Assembly: GCA_019752575.1 (NCBI GenBank)
Contig: JAIELW010000015.1
Coordinates: forward strand, 1-52,079
Direction: 5' to 3'
Length of the DNA: 52,079 nt
Source of the DNA: Xanthobacteraceae bacterium
GTDB lineage: Bacteria; Pseudomonadota; Alphaproteobacteria; Rhizobiales; Xanthobacteraceae
Part shown: positions 1,683 to 10,085 of the stretch, piece after piece
Position numbering within the stretch: position 1 is the stretch's first letter
How the letters are laid out: each line of letters starts with the position of its first letter
The notes under the pieces: generated by a model
Seen by the model: the letters and a program-made list of their open reading frames with translations, nothing else
The model's database searches: none
Told to the model about the DNA's origin: nothing
Translations under genes and position numbers: made by a program

Positions 1683-2225
1683 ATGTCCGTTGCACCGCAA
1701 AGCTACCAGCAGGGCTATTCGGGTTTTGCGAAATCGCTGCACTGGATCGTGGCCCTTCTGGTGCTCACCACTATTCCGGTCGGTGTCGCAATGGGCCAGA
1801 TCGAGAAAGCGCCGTTCAATCTTTTCAACTTCCACAAGTCGCTCGGCGTTCTCATTCTTATCCTGATGACGATCCGGCTCATTTATCGCCTCATGCACGG
1901 TGCGCCGCCGGAGCCCTATATCCCGGTTTTCTATCAGATTGCCGGCTCGATCACCCATTGGGCGCTTTACGTGCTCCTGATCATCACGCCGATCTCGGGC
2001 GCGATCGCGAACATGTATTACGGCGCGCCAACACCGTTCTTCGGTTTGTTCGAGGTGCCGCCGTTCTTCACGAAGAACGAGGACACTGCTAATTTCATCT
2101 TCGCGCGCCACAGGTGGCTCGGTTTCACGGTCGGCGCGCTCGTGTGCATGCACATCGGCGCGGGGCTGTTCCACTATTTCATCCGCAAGGACGGCGTCTT
2201 GCAGCGGATGCTGCCGGGAAGCTGA
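1683..2225 (+). CDS. Cytochrome b561 family membrane protein
   Basis: A 180-residue, four-helix di-heme b-type cytochrome of the bacterial b561 family, which passes electrons between the quinone pool and periplasmic acceptors in the inner membrane. Four histidines sit where the family places heme ligands: H20 in helix 1 (KSLHWIV), H51 in helix 2 (NFHKSLG), H143 and H157 around helix 4 (ARHRWLG, CMHIGAG). Hydrophobic segments lie at about 18-38, 52-70, 88-110 and 147-166. Length matches the family. The start is supported by GGGAGA 8 bases upstream. It stands alone between pbpC and the structured intergenic region. Members of this fold include superoxide:quinone oxidoreductase (CybB) and partners of secreted redox enzymes, and the sequence alone does not say which applies. 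Confidence 0.9.
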   Translation: MSVAPQSYQQGYSGFAKSLHWIVALLVLTTIPVGVAMGQIEKAPFNLFNFHKSLGVLILILMTIRLIYRLMHGAPPEPYIPVFYQIAGSITHWALYVLLIITPISGAIANMYYGAPTPFFGLFEVPPFFTKNEDTANFIFARHRWLGFTVGALVCMHIGAGLFHYFIRKDGVLQRMLPGS

Positions 2226-2679: not shown

Positions 2680-3519
2680 TTAGCGGGGCAGTGCCAGCAA
2701 GTCTTTATGGCCGACAATACAAGTGGTGCCGCGCGCTTTGCGCGCGGCTAGCCATGACTGGATTACGCTCTCCGGAACCGATCTCGTTTCGCGAACCGCA
2801 TTCGCCCAGCCTTCAGCAAGCGCTTCGATCAGTGCGTGGTCTTCCGGCCCGAGTATCCAGTCGCTATCGGCAAGTTCGGCGTCGTAGCCGAGCGCTTTCA
2901 ACTTCTTCCCGATCAAGCCGATCGCTTTGTTGCCGGCCGAAGGACCGAAGCCTTTTTCTTTCCCGAAATCGCGCTCGAACGCCTCCGTCATTTGTTTGTC
3001 GGCGTCATGCGTGGGCGACCACTTCGCGGTTTTGTCATGCACCAGCGTCGTATAAAGCGCGAGCTTGTCTTTCGCGAGCGCCGCGCAAAAGCGGTCGATC
3101 CAGTTTTCCGAAACGAGGTCGAACAAGGCGGCTGAGGTCACAAGATCGGGAATCGAGTCGCCCCACGGAGCGGGATTTGCGTTTAGATCCGCACGCTTCA
3201 CCTCGACACGAACGAGCTTGTTGCTCTTTTCGAGTTCGAGACCCGCCGCGGTCGGGCGCGACTTATCCGCCCACGCGCTCAGGAAATCGAGCGAAGCGGA
3301 AAGCAGCGCGGGATCGTAATCGACCAGCACCCATCGCTGACGTGTCCCAAGCGCAAGCGCGGTCCCGCGCAGGTTTGAGCCCGCGCCCGCGCCGAGATCG
3401 TAGATCACCGGCTCGTCTTTGCCGGCGAGATGGCTTGCCGCTTTCGCGAGCAACGCTTTGTCGCGCGAACGATGATCGGCCGGCTCGCGAAGACGCAACC
3501 ATTCCGGCGAGAAACTCAT
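2680..3519 (-). CDS. Class I SAM-dependent methyltransferase (pterin-like cluster)
   Basis: A 279-residue Rossmann-fold methyltransferase. SAM-binding motif I is DLGAGAGSNLRG at about residues 41-52, followed by the acidic end of strand 2 (VDYDPALL). The substrate is not evident from sequence. The start ATG (3519-3517) overlaps the stop of the upstream glycosyltransferase as ATGA, so translation is probably coupled and the two proteins made together. It is the last gene of a four-gene minus-strand operon: dehydrogenase, pterin-synthase-fold protein, glycosyltransferase, methyltransferase. The palindrome at 2637-2675 follows directly. A longer upstream reading in the same frame runs into the glycosyltransferase and is rejected in favour of the coupled start. 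Function as a tailoring O- or N-methyltransferase on a glycosylated product is inferred from context only. Confidence 0.85.
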   Translation of the reverse strand: MSFSPEWLRLREPADHRSRDKALLAKAASHLAGKDEPVIYDLGAGAGSNLRGTALALGTRQRWVLVDYDPALLSASLDFLSAWADKSRPTAAGLELEKSNKLVRVEVKRADLNANPAPWGDSIPDLVTSAALFDLVSENWIDRFCAALAKDKLALYTTLVHDKTAKWSPTHDADKQMTEAFERDFGKEKGFGPSAGNKAIGLIGKKLKALGYDAELADSDWILGPEDHALIEALAEGWANAVRETRSVPESVIQSWLAARKARGTTCIVGHKDLLALPR

Positions 3520-4574
3520 GCGGCTGCCTTCGCATGTGCGCGTTCCAGCGCCTCGGCGACACGTTTCGCGGTGTCGCTCCAGCGCGGAAGTTTTTTCGCA
3601 TATTCCCACGCCGCATCGGCGCGTTTTGAAAACTCGGCAGGCGCGGTCAGTAATCTGCGAAGCGTCAGCGCGAGCTCGCCGAAATTGCCGGGCGTTACGA
3701 AAACGCCGGCGGCGCGCGGAACCGTCTCGACCAGCGCGCCGCCGGAGCCCGCGACGACCGGAAGCCCGCGAGCGAGCGCTTCGGTAAACGCCATGCCGTA
3801 ACCTTCGAAATGCGAAGGCAGCACGAATAGCGAAGCGCTGGAATATTCTTTCTCGAGTCCGGCATCGTCGAGCGGGCCGAGCAGGGCGGTTCGTTCTTTT
3901 ATCTTTCCGTCCGCGATTTCTCTCTCGAGCGCTTGCATCGCAATCGCGTCGCGATCCGTGCTGCCGGCAATCCGCCATTCCCATTCGAGGTCGCGGACTT
4001 TCGAAAGCGCTTTCGCGAGCGTGTCGTGCCCTTTGCGGCGCGTGATCGCACCGACCGACAGGAGCCGCATCGGTTTGGAATCGCCCTTCGCGCGCGCGGA
4101 GGGTTCGGTGCCCGGCTCGGCAACAGTGAGATCGTTCGGCGCGACATTAAATTCGCGCGCGAGCAGTTCGGCGGTGGAGCGGCTCGTTGCAATCGTCGCA
4201 ACCGCACGCGAGAGCGCCTCGCGCTCGGTGCGATGCAGGTAGTCGATACGATCGGAGGTCAGTCCTGTCTCGAAAGCGAGCGGGTGATGACAGAGCGCGA
4301 CCAGCCGCGCCTTCAAAGACTTCAAGGTCGAAAGCGGAATCGCACCGAGTGCGAGCCCGTCGATCATCACAAGCGCGTCGGAAGGAATGCCGGAAAGAAT
4401 CTTCGCGGTTTCAGCTAATGCTTCTTCCGAAGGCGAGGGGAATTCGGAAGAAAGTTGCAAATGCTTCACGCGCCAGCCGAGCGCGGGCAATTCCTCGATC
4501 ACCCGCTTGTCGTAGCGATAGCCTCCGGTCGGCGTATTCAGGTCGCCCGGAATAGCGAAGACGACTTCGCGCAT
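3516..4574 (-). CDS. Glycosyltransferase family 4 (pterin-like cluster)
   Basis: A 352-residue GT-B retaining glycosyltransferase of family GT4, probably cytoplasmic. Visible signatures are the Gly-rich N-terminal loop (TPTGGYRYD), the nucleotide-sugar-binding region LLSVGAITRRKGHDTL at about 170-185, and the C-terminal E-x7-E motif within FEGYGMAFTEALARGLPVV. The donor sugar and acceptor cannot be read from the sequence. It begins 5 bases after the stop of the pterin-synthase-fold gene and overlaps the methyltransferase start by 4 bases. The tight linkage to a COG0720-type protein recalls cyanobacterial pteridine glycosyltransferases, which attach sugars to tetrahydropterins. That comparison is an inference from neighbourhood, since GT4 enzymes have very many acceptors. 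Confidence 0.87.
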   Translation of the reverse strand: MREVVFAIPGDLNTPTGGYRYDKRVIEELPALGWRVKHLQLSSEFPSPSEEALAETAKILSGIPSDALVMIDGLALGAIPLSTLKSLKARLVALCHHPLAFETGLTSDRIDYLHRTEREALSRAVATIATSRSTAELLAREFNVAPNDLTVAEPGTEPSARAKGDSKPMRLLSVGAITRRKGHDTLAKALSKVRDLEWEWRIAGSTDRDAIAMQALEREIADGKIKERTALLGPLDDAGLEKEYSSASLFVLPSHFEGYGMAFTEALARGLPVVAGSGGALVETVPRAAGVFVTPGNFGELALTLRRLLTAPAEFSKRADAAWEYAKKLPRWSDTAKRVAEALERAHAKAAA

Positions 4575-4579
4575 GAAGC

Positions 4580-4978
4580 TCAGACCGCCGCTTCGTACCA
4601 GCCGCGCGCGACATGCGACTCGTGCATCGTCACGCGGATTTTGGAGACGCCTTCGGAGTCCGCACCCAACTTGCCGGCTTTGAGCGCCGCTTTCATCTGC
4701 TCGAAGACATAACGCGCGAGAAACTCGGTCGTGGTCTGCTTGCCTTTGAACTCCGGCACATCGTCGAGATTGCGATAATTGATCGGCGCGAGCGTGGCTT
4801 TGAGCGCGTCGATCGCAGCACCGATGTCGACCACGACTTCGTTCGATCCTAGCTTCTCGCGGAAGAAAGCGACGTCGCAGACGAAAGTCGCGCCGTGCAC
4901 GCGCTGCGCGGGGCCGAAGAACTCGCCCTTGAAAGAATGGGCGATCATGATGTGGTCGCGGACTTCGACGGCGTACAT
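4580..4978 (-). CDS. Divergent 6-pyruvoyl-tetrahydropterin synthase/QueD-fold protein
   Basis: A 132-residue member of the PTPS/6-carboxytetrahydropterin synthase (COG0720) fold, normally a zinc enzyme acting on 7,8-dihydroneopterin triphosphate. Hand alignment to E. coli QueD keeps zinc ligands H14 (IAHSF) and H28 (RVHGA) and the Glu of MHESHVARGWY that grips the pterin. It loses the catalytic Cys27 (A24 here), the third zinc His33 (A30) and the Asp-His pair of LDHHYLND, which reads INYRNLDD. The complete Cys-Asp-His triad is therefore gone. The protein is full length, without frameshift, and sits inside a tight operon, so decay looks unlikely. It may catalyse a different reaction or bind a pterin-like ligand. 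It is probably not a queuosine enzyme: no queC, queE or queF is nearby. Confidence 0.85.
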   Translation of the reverse strand: MYAVEVRDHIMIAHSFKGEFFGPAQRVHGATFVCDVAFFREKLGSNEVVVDIGAAIDALKATLAPINYRNLDDVPEFKGKQTTTEFLARYVFEQMKAALKAGKLGADSEGVSKIRVTMHESHVARGWYEAAV

Positions 4979-4996
4979 AAAGAGACTTCCTCTATA

Positions 4997-5989
4997 TCAG
5001 TAACGGACGAGCGCGCCGAGGCCCGGCGCTTTCGGCGACAACAGGCGCGACAATTGCTGCGGAAGTTCGGCAAACGGCACTTCCTCGCCGATCAACGCGT
5101 CGAGCTTGTCATCGGCAAGCAGACCGACCGCGGCTTCCAGCCGCCGCCGGGTGCTCCAGCGCTTGGCGCGTGCCGCGCAGACGTTGCCGACCTGGCTCGA
5201 GATCAGCCGCAGGCGGCGGGAATGAAAAGCGTCGCCCAAAGGCACGTTCACCATGCCGGCGCCGAACCAGCTTGCCTCCACGATCGTGCCTTCAACGCCT
5301 GCAAGCTTCAAAGCGAGCGTCAGGCCCGCGGCCGAGGCAGTGGAATGAATAACGAGATCGGCATCGCCGGGCGCGTCCGCGGGCAAGGCGAACACGACCC
5401 CGATCTTCTTCGCAATCGCCTCCCGCGACGGCTCGATATCCACGAGCGTCACCATTGCGCCGGGCAGGCGGCTGGCGAGTGCCGCGACCAGCATGCCCAC
5501 GATGCCGCCGCCAACGATTACGATCCGGTCGGCTGGCTGGGCGCCGCCGTCCCAAAGTATATTGAGCGCCGTTTCCATGTTGGCAGCGAGCGTGGCGCGG
5601 CGCGGCGGCACGTTGCCGGGAATGATGAACGCCCGTTCAGCCTGCACGACGAAGCGGTCCTGATGCGGGTAGAGCGCGAAGATATTCTTGCCCTTGAGTT
5701 CGGCCGGCCCTTCCTCGACCACGCCGACTGCCGAGTAGCCGTACTTAACCGGGAAGGGGAATTCGCCTTCCTGTGCCGGCGCCTTCATCCGGCTCCATTC
5801 GATCTCCGGCACCTTGCCTTCGAAGATCAGCCGTTCCGTGCCTCGGCTTAGACCCGAATAGAGCGTGCGGACGAGCACGCCGTTCGGCCCAGGATCACCG
5901 ATTGTTGCAGGACGTAACTCGGCCTTGCCCGGCGCGACATACCAGAGCGCCCTGGCGTCATTGTTCTTAGGTTTAACGGTCGAGTTCAC
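4997..5989 (-). CDS. Medium-chain dehydrogenase/reductase, apparently without catalytic zinc
   Basis: A 330-residue MDR-superfamily oxidoreductase, with a GroES-like N-terminal half and a Rossmann domain with IVGGGIVGMLVAALA at about 160-174. The usual catalytic-zinc Cys (GxCGTD) is replaced in YSGLSRGTE and the GHE histidine by KYGYSAVG, so the zinc-dependent alcohol dehydrogenase mechanism seems absent. The overall pattern (SRGTE near the start, DAFHSRRLRLISSQVG near residue 265) resembles BchC-like members that oxidise or reduce a side chain on a large ring. It is first in the minus-strand operon, 18 bases before the pterin-synthase-fold gene, and faces away from opgH across 120 bases that must hold both promoters. 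Confidence 0.85.
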   Translation of the reverse strand: MNSTVKPKNNDARALWYVAPGKAELRPATIGDPGPNGVLVRTLYSGLSRGTERLIFEGKVPEIEWSRMKAPAQEGEFPFPVKYGYSAVGVVEEGPAELKGKNIFALYPHQDRFVVQAERAFIIPGNVPPRRATLAANMETALNILWDGGAQPADRIVIVGGGIVGMLVAALASRLPGAMVTLVDIEPSREAIAKKIGVVFALPADAPGDADLVIHSTASAAGLTLALKLAGVEGTIVEASWFGAGMVNVPLGDAFHSRRLRLISSQVGNVCAARAKRWSTRRRLEAAVGLLADDKLDALIGEEVPFAELPQQLSRLLSPKAPGLGALVRY

Positions 5990-6109
5990 GCGAAAGGCCT
6001 TAGCAAATATTTTGGAACGCGCTAGGAATTAGCGAGTTTTCGCCACGGATTTGTACCGGTTGTCGGCGAGAAGGCGCTAACGCGCAAGCAGGGGACGGCT
6101 TTACCAAAC

Positions 6110-7936
6110 ATGTCAATCGAAACCACTTCCGCTGAGGCCAAAACGGCCGTCGGCGTCGCTAGCAGTGCGGCCAATACCGGGATCGGCGAAACCACGCCGA
6201 CCGGAATGCAGTCGGTACGGGTGATCACCCGCCGCCGGATCATCTTCGCCGGACTTTCCGTCGCCACCATGCTCGGCATGGCAGTCTGGCTCGTGCAAAT
6301 TCTCGCCCATGACGGCTTCGGTCTTCTGGACGCGCTGCTGCTCGCCTGTTTCCTGACCTACGTTCCCTGGATCGCCATCGGCTTCTGGAATTCCGCGATC
6401 GGATTCTTCTTCATGAATCTGGTGAAGAACCCCGTGCCGGAGATCACGCCGGTCGTGCTCAAGGCGCGCGACACCGACCCGGTCATTGTTCGCTCCGCGA
6501 TCCTGATGACGGTCAGAAACGAAGACCCCACCCGCGCGTTTGCGCGCCTTCGCGTGATCAAGCAAAGCCTCGACCGCACCGGCCAGGCCGACAAGTTCGA
6601 CTTCTTCGTGCTCTCGGACACGAACCGCGACGACGTGGCGAAGCTCGAGGAGGCGGCTGCCGACACCTGGGCCAAGGAGTTTCCGGGCGTCTCGAAACTC
6701 ATTTATCGCCGCCGCGAGCACAATGTCGGTTACAAGGCCGGCAACGTCCGCGATTTCTGCGAGCGCTGGGGCAAGAATTACGAATTGATGATTCCGCTCG
6801 ATGCGGATTCGATCATGACCGGCGAAACCATCGTGAAGATGGTGCGCATCCATCAGGCCAATCCGCGCCTCGGCATTTTGCAGAGCCTGATCGTCGGCAT
6901 GCCGAGCACGAGCTTCTTCGCGCGCGTCTATCAATTCGGCATGCGCCACGGCCTGCGCGCCTATATCGCGGGCTATGCGTGGTGGCATGCGGACTGCGGG
7001 CTGTTCTGGGGCCACAACACCACGATCCGGATTCAGCCGTTCTACGATTACTGCAAGCTGCCGCTGCTTCCCGGCAAGCCGCCGTTCGGCGGGCACATTC
7101 TCTCGCACGACCACATCGAAGCGATGATGATGCGCCGTGCCGGATTCGAAGTACGCGTCATCCCGGAAGAAGTCGGTTCCTATGAAGAGACGCCGCCGAC
7201 GCTCTTGGATTTCGAAGCGCGCGACGTGCGCTGGGCGAACGGCAACCTGCAATACACCAAGCTCTTGGACATGCCGGGCTTGCAGCCGGTGAGCTGGGTG
7301 CAATTGCTAATGGCGATCCAGATGTTCGTGGGCCAGGGTGCCGTGGTCCTGTTCGCGGTTCTTGCAGCACTTGCGCTCGCGATCGCGCCCGCTTCGTCGG
7401 CCGCGACCTTCCCGATCTGGTCCGCATTCGGCTTCTACGCGCTCTTTATCTTCATGTTCATCGCGCCGCGCATCTTCGGTGTGTTCGATGCGCTGCTGCG
7501 TTCGGCCGCCCGCTACGGCGGCACCGCGCGTCTGTTCCTCGGCGGCGCGATCGACATGGCGTTCACTTTCGTCCATGCGCCGTTGCAGATGTTCGCGGCG
7601 AGCTACTTCATGGTTGCCGCGCTGTTCGGCCGCAAAACGAAGTGGGACGGTCAGCAGCGCGACGGCTATCGCGTGCCTTGGAAGGCGGCGGCAAAGACTT
7701 TCATGCCGCATACGCTGCTCGGCCTCGGCATTCTTCTCTTCGTACTGATCGTCTCGCCGAAATCGGCGATCTGGTTCGTGCCGCTAGTGTTCGGCCTGAT
7801 CGTGGTGATTCCGTTCGCGGTCTACACGTCGGACACGCGGCTCGGCGCCTGGGCGGAGCGCAACAAGTTCTGCGCCATGCCGGAGGAGTTCGACATGCCG
7901 GAGGAAATCCGCGCCGTGCAGGCGGCGGCCGCCTGA
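6110..7936 (+). CDS. opgH: Glucans biosynthesis glucosyltransferase H (MdoH/OpgH)
   Basis: Inner-membrane family 2 glucosyltransferase that uses UDP-glucose to build and export the beta-glucan backbone of osmoregulated periplasmic glucans. It has 608 residues, shorter than the ~850 of E. coli because it lacks most of the long cytoplasmic N-terminus. Membrane segments lie at about 45-65, 70-105, 400-430, 440-465, 490-520 and 540-590. The catalytic core holds IPLDADSIMTGE (the DxD-type metal site), LSHDHIEAMMMRRAG (acid/base region) and DVRWANGNLQ, the Q/RxxRW-type acceptor motif. No opgG is visible next to it. An FkbM methyltransferase starts 3 bases after its stop, suggesting one transcript and possible decoration of the glucan. 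Confidence 0.92.
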   Translation: MSIETTSAEAKTAVGVASSAANTGIGETTPTGMQSVRVITRRRIIFAGLSVATMLGMAVWLVQILAHDGFGLLDALLLACFLTYVPWIAIGFWNSAIGFFFMNLVKNPVPEITPVVLKARDTDPVIVRSAILMTVRNEDPTRAFARLRVIKQSLDRTGQADKFDFFVLSDTNRDDVAKLEEAAADTWAKEFPGVSKLIYRRREHNVGYKAGNVRDFCERWGKNYELMIPLDADSIMTGETIVKMVRIHQANPRLGILQSLIVGMPSTSFFARVYQFGMRHGLRAYIAGYAWWHADCGLFWGHNTTIRIQPFYDYCKLPLLPGKPPFGGHILSHDHIEAMMMRRAGFEVRVIPEEVGSYEETPPTLLDFEARDVRWANGNLQYTKLLDMPGLQPVSWVQLLMAIQMFVGQGAVVLFAVLAALALAIAPASSAATFPIWSAFGFYALFIFMFIAPRIFGVFDALLRSAARYGGTARLFLGGAIDMAFTFVHAPLQMFAASYFMVAALFGRKTKWDGQQRDGYRVPWKAAAKTFMPHTLLGLGILLFVLIVSPKSAIWFVPLVFGLIVVIPFAVYTSDTRLGAWAERNKFCAMPEEFDMPEEIRAVQAAAA

Positions 7937-7938
7937 AC

Positions 7939-8715
7939 ATGCTGGCTTGGCTGACAACGGGGCGGGCGATCCTTCGCTCGCTCCGTATTTATTACGGCGA
8001 CCGCAGCCACGGCAAAAAAATGGACGCGATGTATTCGCGTTTTCTCAAGGCCGGTGACCTCGCATTCGATGTCGGCTCGCATGTCGGCGACCGCACCGGA
8101 TCCTTTCTCCGCCTCGGCGCGAAAGTGATCGCGCTCGAGCCGCAGCCTGCGCTCGGCTCGGTCTTGAAGCTCTTTTACGGACGCAATCCGAAATTCGAAT
8201 TGGTGCGCGCGGCCGTCGGCAGCCGCGAAGGCGAGATCGAACTGAAACTGAATACCCGGAACCCGACGGTCGCCACCGCTTCGGACGATTTCATCAAGTC
8301 CGCCGACACGGCCCCCGGCTGGGAAGGCCAGCGGTGGGACGACAAGATCAAGGTTCCGATGACCACGCTCGATGCGTTGATCAAGCGCTACGGCAAGCCG
8401 GCCTTCGTGAAAGTCGATGTCGAGGGATTTGAAGACGAAGTACTTGCGGGACTTTCGCAGCCGCTTGCAGCGCTCTCGATCGAGTTCACGACGATCCAGC
8501 GGAACGTCGCCTTGCAGGCGATCAAGCGTTTGGCAGCGATGGCTCCGTACCGCTTCAACGCGGCGCTCGGCGAGAGCCAGCTTCTTGCCCACTCGCAACC
8601 GCTTTCCGCGGAGGAAATCAGCCGCTGGATCTCGGAACTGCCCATCGCGGCCAATTCCGGCGACGTTTATGCGAGCCTGAATGACGCGTCTCTGAAGGCC
8701 AATCCTTCAAGCTGA
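7939..8715 (+). CDS. FkbM family methyltransferase
   Basis: A 258-residue SAM-dependent methyltransferase of the FkbM family, whose members O-methylate sugars and polyketides. Motif I is FDVGSHVGDRTGSF at about residues 44-57, EPQP ends strand 2, and FVKVDVEGFEDEVL is the FkbM signature at about 155-168. The ATG at 7939 lies 3 bases behind the opgH stop, giving a tightly coupled two-gene unit. Longer in-frame starts would run inside opgH and are not supported. Because of this coupling, a methylated periplasmic glucan or glucan precursor is a plausible product. That is an inference, since FkbM enzymes act on many hydroxyl groups. Confidence 0.88.
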   Translation: MLAWLTTGRAILRSLRIYYGDRSHGKKMDAMYSRFLKAGDLAFDVGSHVGDRTGSFLRLGAKVIALEPQPALGSVLKLFYGRNPKFELVRAAVGSREGEIELKLNTRNPTVATASDDFIKSADTAPGWEGQRWDDKIKVPMTTLDALIKRYGKPAFVKVDVEGFEDEVLAGLSQPLAALSIEFTTIQRNVALQAIKRLAAMAPYRFNAALGESQLLAHSQPLSAEEISRWISELPIAANSGDVYASLNDASLKANPSS

Positions 8716-8804
8716 TCCCGCAAAAGGGTATGGGTCGCTTCCGGCCAGCGGCCTATTCTGGAATAAAGATACAAGGTCGCGCTCGCTTGCGGCACGGAGG
8801 GAAC

Positions 8805-9509
8805 ATGGCCGACGTCATTCCTTATAATCGGGAAGAGAAGAGCGCACAGCCGTCTTCGCTTTACCTGCCGTACAAGTCGACCGAATTTCGCGCGCCGAAG
8901 CAGCCGCTGGTGATCCTCCCGCACACGCTCTCGGAAGTAACCGGCCCGGTCTATGGACACGGCCGCATGCTGCCGGTCGACGCCGACCTTACCAAGCAGC
9001 ACGCCGGCGAGCCGCTGGGCGAGCGCATCATCGTCAGCGGCAAACTGCTCGACGAAAACGGCCGCCCGGTTCCGAATACGCTGATCGAGATCTGGCAGTG
9101 TAACGCTGCCGGCCGCTACATCCATGCACGCGACCAGCATCCCGCGCCGCTGGACCCGAATTTTTCCGGTGCCGGCCGCGTCGTCACCGACGCCAAAGGC
9201 AATTACAAATTCACGAGCATCAAGCCTGGCGCTTATCCGTGGCGCAATCATCCGAATGCGTGGCGGCCGGCGCACATCCACTTTTCGATGTTCGGCCCGA
9301 GCTTCATCAATCGGCTCGTGACGCAGATGTATTTCCCTGGCGATCCGCTGTTTGCGTTCGACCCGATCTACCAGAGCATTACGGACGAGAAAGCGCGCGA
9401 GCGCATGGTGAGCCGTTTCGACATGGACTCGACGATCCCGGAATGGGCGCTCGGCTATAAGTTCGATATCGTTCTACGCGGCCGAAACGCGACGCCGATG
9501 GAGCATTAA
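8805..9509 (+). CDS. pcaH: Protocatechuate 3,4-dioxygenase beta subunit
   Basis: Iron-bearing subunit of the intradiol dioxygenase that opens protocatechuate to beta-carboxy-cis,cis-muconate in the cytoplasm. The protein is 234 residues. All four Fe(III) ligands are visible at the family spacing: Y105 (AGRYIH), Y144 (PGAYPW), H157 and H159 (AHIHFS), equivalent to Tyr108, Tyr147, His160 and His162 of the Pseudomonas enzyme. The start ATG follows GGAGGGAAC, an ideal ribosome binding site, which decides against an upstream in-frame start at 8730. pcaG follows 3 bases later. The other beta-ketoadipate genes (pcaB, C, D) are not in this window, which is unusual but not rare. Confidence 0.95.
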   Translation: MADVIPYNREEKSAQPSSLYLPYKSTEFRAPKQPLVILPHTLSEVTGPVYGHGRMLPVDADLTKQHAGEPLGERIIVSGKLLDENGRPVPNTLIEIWQCNAAGRYIHARDQHPAPLDPNFSGAGRVVTDAKGNYKFTSIKPGAYPWRNHPNAWRPAHIHFSMFGPSFINRLVTQMYFPGDPLFAFDPIYQSITDEKARERMVSRFDMDSTIPEWALGYKFDIVLRGRNATPMEH

Positions 9510-9512
9510 TCC

Positions 9513-10085
9513 GTGAGTAAGCAGCGTTTCGGTCAGACCCCGTCGCAGACGGTCGGCCCGTTCTTTCATTTCGGTCTGCCTTACGAGGGCGACAGCAATC
9601 TCATTACCGGCGATGCGCAGGGGCAGCGCATCGTGGTAGAAGGCAAGGTGATGGACGGCGCAGGCGAGCCCGTTCCCGATGTGCTGATCGAAATCTGGCA
9701 GGCGAACGCTGCCGGCAAGTACGATCATCCGGAAGACACGCAAGACAAGCCGGTCGACGAGGGCTTTCACGGCTTCGGCCGCTGCGCGACCGACAAGGAA
9801 GGTGTGTTCCGTTTTCAGACTGTCAAGCCCGGAACGGTGCCGGGGCCCGGCAACACGTTGCAGGCGCCGCATCTCGTAACCTTCGTCTTTGGCCGCGGCA
9901 TGTTGAAACAGCTTTTGACTCGAATCTATTTCGAGGATGAAGCGCACAATGCAAACGATCCCGTGCTCGGTCTGGTACCGGACGCCCGCCGCGCGACATT
10001 GATTGCACGTAAAACTAATTCCTCGGCCTACACGCTGAACATCGTGTTGCAAGGCGAGGGTGAAACCGTCTTCTTCGACTACTGA
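9513..10085 (+). CDS. pcaG: Protocatechuate 3,4-dioxygenase alpha subunit
   Basis: A 190-residue alpha subunit of protocatechuate 3,4-dioxygenase. It shares the intradiol dioxygenase beta-sandwich with PcaH (TPSQTVGPFFHFGL at the N-terminus; VLIEIWQANAAGKY at about 53-66) but lacks the iron-ligating His pair, which is normal for alpha chains: where PcaH has AHIHFS, this chain has PHLVTFVF. It contributes substrate-binding residues to the alpha-beta active site. The GTG start lies 3 bases after the pcaH stop. A 342-base spacer separates it from the TRAP transporter genes. Confidence 0.94.
   Translation: MSKQRFGQTPSQTVGPFFHFGLPYEGDSNLITGDAQGQRIVVEGKVMDGAGEPVPDVLIEIWQANAAGKYDHPEDTQDKPVDEGFHGFGRCATDKEGVFRFQTVKPGTVPGPGNTLQAPHLVTFVFGRGMLKQLLTRIYFEDEAHNANDPVLGLVPDARRATLIARKTNSSAYTLNIVLQGEGETVFFDY

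Follow-up and report, generated by a model that had tools for sequence, protein, structure and literature searches.

Which compound is made by a compact operon in which the genes for a dehydrogenase, a T-fold protein of the PTPS type, a glycosyltransferase and a methyltransferase stand together? The question is raised by a stretch of 52,079 nucleotides (the window) on contig JAIELW010000015.1 of a Xanthobacteraceae bacterium (assembly GCA_019752575.1). On balance, the four genes seem to be the core of a pathway, conserved and uncharacterised, which makes a glycosylated, methylated pterin-type compound from GTP, and the product is perhaps membrane-linked. A reading of the window from its letters alone (the sequence-only reading) had proposed a pathway in which a small molecule is glycosylated and methylated, and this is still the best interpretation of the operon.

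Conservation and co-occurrence of the four genes

The open reading frames of the MDR-superfamily dehydrogenase (MDR), the PTPS protein, the GT4 glycosyltransferase and the methyltransferase (MT) all lie on the minus strand. Their gaps of 18, 5 and -4 bases are exactly those given in the sequence-only reading, and it was found that the order of the unit is conserved across relatives. A family counted as present in a locus if tblastn gave a match at E 1e-8 spanning no less than 35% of the query. A scan of genome contigs, with patterns derived from the query itself, gave 54 loci containing MDR in 52, GT4 in 53 and MT in 45 cases; MDR-PTPS-GT4-MT were contiguous in 42 of the 54, and several of the others are short contigs. 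An alignment-based search of 297 Hyphomicrobiales genomes served as a second, order-wide sample. The PTPS gene, which belongs to subfamily PTPS-IV (see below), was present in 89 of these genomes and in 42 of 123 genera. Among the 90 matches listed, one locus from each of 41 genera (the window's own left out) and a second locus of genome G167 were taken, and these 42 loci hold MDR in 40, GT4 in 41 and MT in 36. The four genes are contiguous in 34 of the 42, so the neighbourhood check in Hyphomicrobiales that the sequence-only reading had proposed came out in its favour. As for the eight exceptions, the contig ends at or just after GT4 in three (L122, L130, L131), L099 (also without MT), L134 and L136 are rearranged, L127 is without MT, and L125 is a lone second copy. 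Because the order is contiguous in 42/54 and 34/42 loci, the linkage goes beyond chance.

The unit is not peculiar to alphaproteobacteria. PTPS-IV was found in 27 of 398 genomes of a Pseudomonadota sample. Thirteen of the 27 loci were examined, two from the same order, three from the same class and eight from elsewhere in the phylum; all four genes were contiguous in 12 of the 13, and L187 is without GT4. Plasmids gave 20 records with PTPS-IV, and among the 14 regions examined the four genes were contiguous in 6/10 of a first set and 3/4 of a second, on plasmids of Streptomyces, Microbacterium, Rhizobium, Agrobacterium, Methylosinus and the gammaproteobacterium Thiodictyon. Two Streptomyces plasmids carry a lone PTPS-IV gene (L065 10001-10399, L160 10001-10426), with cupin, BTAD-regulator, sigma-factor and MBL-fold genes near both.

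Co-occurrence was followed in 80 genomes, each from another genus, of which 41 carry PTPS-IV and 39 do not (G051 was left out); bit thresholds were chosen after inspection of the table and p values ignore kinship. An MDR match above 400 bits was present in 41/41 PTPS-IV genomes versus 0/39 others; in the PTPS-IV-free genome G005 there is an MDR match of 176 bits, which contains a stop. MT was present in 37/41 versus 2/39. Two of its four misses (G211, G232) are genomes whose contig ends after GT4, and the two PTPS-IV-free genomes with a match (G001, G010) have no other core genes nearby. A second RibD_C protein, scoring 85 bits or more, was found in 32/41 versus 0/39 (p = 1.7e-14, among the matches listed, which go down to about 47 bits), and a RibA of at least 145 bits in 22/41 versus 9/39 (p = 0.006). 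In G043 the only RibD_C match is a reductase-sized one beside the PTPS-IV cluster (contig C6:281526-282041), and no bifunctional RibD was matched there. Correlations between the pairwise distances of the four core proteins were moderate (Spearman 0.37-0.74) and were not used as evidence.

Proteins of the core

The PTPS protein matches PF01242 with E 4.9e-20 (Pfam) and is the sole PF01242 protein found in its own genome. FGPAQ is given as the signature of PTPS-IV within COG0720 in the available part of PMC5445326. With this motif and the PF01242 fold match, the protein is, by its sequence, a member of the known subfamily PTPS-IV. SCO6650 of Streptomyces coelicolor (3d7j) matches it over the full length (E 6.3e-41) and shares the FGPAQ..HGAT and NYRNLD motifs; two other PDB sequences match much less well (E 5e-4 and 6e-3). 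In its predicted structure (pLDDT 91.5) the best match is again 3d7j (TM 0.94, 50% identity), followed by QueD and PTPS structures at TM of about 0.7 and about 20% identity (E. coli QueD, TM 0.74), while weak matches to GTP cyclohydrolase I and matches to uricases come far down in the list.

We take the catalytic residues of canonical PTPS and QueD to be a Cys-Asp-His triad, together with three zinc histidines. Alignment to the PDB sequences shows that the nucleophile Cys is replaced by Ala24, the Asp-His of the triad by Asn67-Tyr68 and HGH by HGA. The same holds in an alignment of 55 rows (the window, 53 full relatives and one partial), in which no row has a Cys in FGPAQ, HGH reads HGA in 55/55 and neither Cys nor His stands at the triad places. 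All full rows keep H14, H28, TTTE and E120-S-H unchanged. Because the triad and one zinc histidine are lost, canonical PTPS or QueD activity, and with it a canonical PTPS step in the pathway, is unlikely. SCO6650, too, is reportedly without zinc and without PTPS activity.

The MDR protein had been called BchC-like, which fits, since TIGR01202 BchC (bacteriochlorophyllide 3-hydroxyethyl dehydrogenase) is its best family match and nearest curated family in NCBIfam. Unlike BchC itself, it scores 56.8 bits, far under the cut-off of 291.25, and its operon has no bacteriochlorophyll gene; against ADH_zinc_N (Pfam) it reaches 26.9 bits, under the cut-off of 31.8. GT4 matches PF13692 with E 1.7e-23 (Pfam). 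For the window MT, neither Pfam nor NCBIfam gave a match at E 0.001; its homologue in locus L060 matches Methyltransf_25 (E 3.3e-10), and the residues D41, G45 and G47 of motif I are invariant across 20 sequences. Its model (mean pLDDT 95.7) has 784 PDB matches at E <=0.001, the best being the S-adenosylmethionine (SAM) methyltransferase 3mgg (E 5.2e-12), and the best 50 of the 784 are nearly all named methyltransferases. By its predicted Rossmann-like fold and motif I, MT belongs to the class I SAM methyltransferases; the fold matches are methyltransferases of diverse substrates at 10-19% identity and are uninformative on its substrate. A role in anti-phage defence was rejected: PADLOC gave no match for three of the proteins, and the weak mad2 match of MT (28.5 bits) was taken to reflect generic methyltransferase similarity.

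The wider gene set and its form in the window

The conserved set is larger than the four-gene core. It includes a stand-alone RibD-type reductase (RibD_C), often RibA, an MdoH-like protein or a CDP-alcohol phosphatidyltransferase, FkbM and cytochrome b561. The sequence-only reading had the core right and left out the RibD-type reductase, RibA and the MdoH/FkbM pair. In the 54 contig-scan and 42 order-wide loci, RibD_C is found in 32/54 and 22/42, RibA in 22/54 and 13/42, MdoH in 48/54 and 29/42, FkbM in 21/54 and 18/42, b561 in 20/54 and 21/42 and CDP-alcohol phosphatidyltransferase in 1/54 and 8/42. The 13 Pseudomonadota loci hold RibD_C in 9, CDP-alcohol phosphatidyltransferase in 8, RibA in 5 and MdoH in 3. 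In four genomes (G167, G211, G070, G232) RibD_C and RibA are paired away from the core, on another contig or at a distance, with b561 alongside three of the pairs, and CDP-alcohol phosphatidyltransferase, FkbM and a sulfatase alongside one.

MdoH and MDR are transcribed divergently in 76 of 106 loci. In Neorhizobium (L063) MdoH lies on the same strand, 2 bases upstream of MDR and in the same operon, and in the rearranged L134 MdoH and FkbM precede PTPS on the PTPS strand. It was considered whether MdoH and CDP-alcohol phosphatidyltransferase are strict alternatives. In 106 loci they occur 79 and 13 times and never together, but two of 13 further loci (L193, L194) have both, so this is a tendency only. 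Flippase-like genes (14/119 loci) and sulfatase-family genes (13/119) never occur in loci with MdoH alone and associate with the CDP-alcohol type; creatininase (13/119) occurs with either type.

The cluster RibA and RibD reductase domain are of the same families as those of the riboflavin pathway, and the zinc-ligand pattern is kept in 37 of 38 cluster RibA proteins. Unlike the RibD of riboflavin synthesis, the cluster copy is reductase-only, without a deaminase domain, and is mostly a second copy in the genome. The active-site position of RibA is Tyr in 36/38, with Met in L064 and Leu in L113 as exceptions. In Streptomyces, the cluster RibA of L064 (14479-15138) and L159 (17265-17867) has Met at the Tyr position, with a creatininase gene adjoining. 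The Met-type RibA of S. coelicolor is said to give a formamide product. The idea that creatininase, as a deformylase, goes with a Met-type RibA fits these two loci, the only Streptomyces loci in which RibA was found. It is not supported by L189, L192, L194 and L195, where a creatininase of 75-86 bits stands beside a Tyr-type RibA, nor by six further proteobacterial loci (creatininase 65-94 bits, Tyr-type RibA).

The features of the window are collected in Table 1. Its divergent MdoH-like gene is a strong family match to the OpgH/MdoH glucan glucosyltransferases, with 755 bits against NF003963 (below the cut-off of 884) and 555 bits against NF003958 (above the cut-off of 419). Unlike the OpgH/MdoH system, this gene is tied to the PTPS-IV core and has no MdoG partner: MdoG (PF04349) has 0 matches in its own genome, which rules out a standard periplasmic glucan (MdoGH/OPG) system.

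Table 1. Features of the operon and its neighbours in the window
Feature	Position	Strand	Remarks
MDR-superfamily dehydrogenase, BchC-like	4997..5989	-	first operon gene; GTG start
PTPS-IV subfamily T-fold protein	4580..4978	-	PF01242, FGPAQ signature, without catalytic triad
GT4 glycosyltransferase with EX7E motif	3516..4574	-	PF13692, PF00534; conserved EgyGm...EA
Class I SAM-dependent methyltransferase (MT)	2680..3519	-	overlaps GT4 stop by 4 bases
Intergenic region, operon versus divergent MdoH-like gene	5990..6109	.	divergent arrangement in 76 of 106 loci
MdoH-like GT2 membrane glucosyltransferase	6110..7936	+	recurrent partner; NF003963, NF003958
FkbM-family methyltransferase	7939..8715	+	PF05050; recurrent partner
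Cytochrome b561 family protein	1683..2225	+	PF01292; convergent neighbour, recurrent partner

The divergent MdoH-like and FkbM genes and the convergent b561 gene fit the pattern of the relatives. The window's own genome has a single PF00925 match, a protein of RibBX type with no zinc cysteines in its RibA-like part (L056 871-1962, contig C18); the one RibD of this genome is bifunctional by sequence, and FolE is present. Family searches found no dedicated RibA or RibD_C in this genome, though the MdoH-like, FkbM and b561 neighbours are kept, and because of this the window looks like a reduced form of the wider gene set. In seven other genomes of the genus, searched for PF00925 only, six show a single, similarly strong match, and the seventh, a genome 72% complete, shows none. 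Elsewhere in the window, the FkbM gene is followed by two intradiol dioxygenase genes (8730-10085), both of the protocatechuate 3,4-dioxygenase type, and a penicillin-binding protein 1C homologue (13-1587) has its N-terminal part missing at the contig start.

The proposed pathway and its alternatives

A sequence of reactions can be proposed from these families. The RibA and RibD_C genes of relatives point to GTP as a possible origin: in most relatives the stand-alone RibD-type reductase, and in about half RibA (GTP cyclohydrolase II), would supply 2,5-diamino-6-(ribosyl/ribityl)aminopyrimidinone phosphate. In the window's genome the precursor could come from housekeeping metabolism, either as the dihydroneopterin phosphate of FolE or as a riboflavin intermediate, because dedicated RibA and RibD_C were not found there. 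MDR, to which we assign the oxidation, would oxidise a side-chain hydroxyl. The PTPS-IV protein, in which the base-binding Glu is kept and the chemistry of zinc and triad is lost, would bind the heterocycle and help to close or reshape its ring, as the invariance of that Glu suggests. GT4 would then add a sugar and MT a methyl group, both steps being read from the protein families. The recurrence of MdoH, CDP-alcohol phosphatidyltransferase and flippase-like genes suggests a membrane-associated last stage, which MdoH-like and FkbM proteins, or CDP-alcohol phosphatidyltransferase and flippase-like proteins, could be carrying out.

A bolder form of this pathway may also be considered. GTP cyclohydrolase I makes a 2'-keto intermediate by Amadori rearrangement. 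The same intermediate would be reached if C1' were first reduced and C2' then oxidised, and MDR, RibD_C and the zinc-less T-fold protein would in that case work together in a coherent way. The cluster would then be a second, GTP-cyclohydrolase-I-independent route to a dihydropterin, in which RibA opens GTP, the RibD-type reductase reduces C1', MDR oxidises C2' and PTPS-IV closes the ring (a split Amadori rearrangement), and the pterin is subsequently glycosylated, methylated and membrane-anchored. We consider this route improbable; if true, its product would be a pterin glycolipid or a glycan-linked pterin of a new class.

Several points weigh against a pterin-type product made from GTP. What the data show is the gene set, its linkage and co-occurrence, the lost residues and the folds of PTPS and MT; all the reactions, their order and the product are inferred. 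The base-binding role of E120 is our assumption, taken from PTPS structures. RibA occurs in just 13/42 and RibD_C in just 22/42 order-wide neighbourhoods, and a RibA of at least 145 bits is also present in 9/39 PTPS-IV-free genomes. PTPS-IV genes without MDR, GT4 and MT exist (L065, L160, L125). Family searches of the window's own genome gave neither a dedicated RibA nor a dedicated RibD_C, and other genomes of the genus have at most one PF00925 match of the weak type each. RibA and RibD_C are, moreover, equally compatible with a riboflavin-like or deazaflavin product.

This last point leads to the alternative which survives best. The pterin product, as the sequence-only reading had stated it, is left unsupported, because the enzymes linked to the core, RibA and RibD_C, are those of the riboflavin branch in GTP metabolism. 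The product could be a compound of that branch (a ribityl-diaminopyrimidine glycoside or a relative of flavin or deazaflavin) and never a pterin, with PTPS-IV merely binding the pyrimidine. Substrates are clearest for two of the partners, RibA and the RibD_C reductase without deaminase domain, and of these two, which were the non-operon partners tested for phyletic linkage, the extra RibD_C is linked more strongly. The own genome, however, keeps the core though no dedicated RibA or RibD_C was found in it, and, judged by their titles, the T-fold relatives found by fold comparison act on pterins, purines or uric acid. A riboflavin-branch product is a doubtful but substantial possibility.

An operon devoted to a surface glycan or glycolipid, with PTPS-IV as a non-catalytic helper and no nucleotide-derived compound at all, is unlikely. 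The recurrence of MdoH-like, FkbM, CDP-alcohol phosphatidyltransferase, flippase-like and sulfatase-family genes would be expected in that case, as would the loss of the PTPS-IV catalytic residues. On the other hand, the linkage of RibD_C and RibA would be hard to account for, many pocket residues of PTPS-IV are invariant, and the lack of MdoG in the own genome means that this is not the standard MdoGH glucan system. A role of PTPS-IV in coenzyme F420 synthesis, stated as unpublished in the available part of PMC5041015, is very unlikely: there is an F420-dependent oxidoreductase near the cluster of Streptomyces fungicidicus, but the features listed for seven alphaproteobacterial plasmid loci include no F420-named gene (the gene table is incomplete, and the own genome was not searched for F420 genes). 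The least credible identity, QueD (6-carboxytetrahydropterin synthase) for queuosine, was rejected: it is the name on 14 of 15 annotated plasmid copies (e.g. L058 9001-9405, L060 9001-9399, L161 10001-10399) and the window's protein is the only PF01242 protein found in its genome, but the name is contradicted because the catalytic residues (Cys, the second His of HGH, the triad His) are lost, the score of 31.8 bits is below the TIGR03367 cut-off of 89.25 (NCBIfam), and no other queuosine-named gene is among the listed features of the examined plasmid loci.

The glycosylated and methylated pterin-type compound, which remains our preferred reading, can be compared with known systems. Cyanobacterial pterin glycosylation by tetrahydrobiopterin glucosyltransferase shares the logic proposed here, a PTPS-fold enzyme together with a glycosyltransferase acting on a pterin; unlike it, PTPS-IV is without the PTPS catalytic residues. 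We know of no counterpart of MDR, MT, RibD_C or the membrane genes in the cyanobacterial system. PTPS-IV with RibA- and RibD_C-type neighbours (PF00925, PF01872) has been published as a cluster of 561 sequences in the available part of PMC5445326, where PF00925 is called GTP cyclohydrolase I/FolE2 (its Pfam name is GTP cyclohydrolase II). Some of the loci of relatives described here have these neighbours (RibD_C in 22/42, RibA in 13/42), as in the published PTPS-IV (PMC5445326, PMC5041015); the loci differ from what the available parts of the two papers describe in the fixed MDR-PTPS-GT4-MT core with MdoH/FkbM and in a genome where dedicated RibA and RibD_C were not found. In a literature search, neither the four-gene core nor the MdoH/FkbM link nor a product was found described; a 2012 paper on PTPS classes, outside its coverage, may describe more of the neighbourhood.

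The gene set is small, and it is found in culturable bacteria such as Rhizobium, Bradyrhizobium, Methylosinus and Streptomyces. As it is kept in about three out of ten sampled Hyphomicrobiales genomes and in the distant Streptomyces, its product is probably of general use to the hosts.

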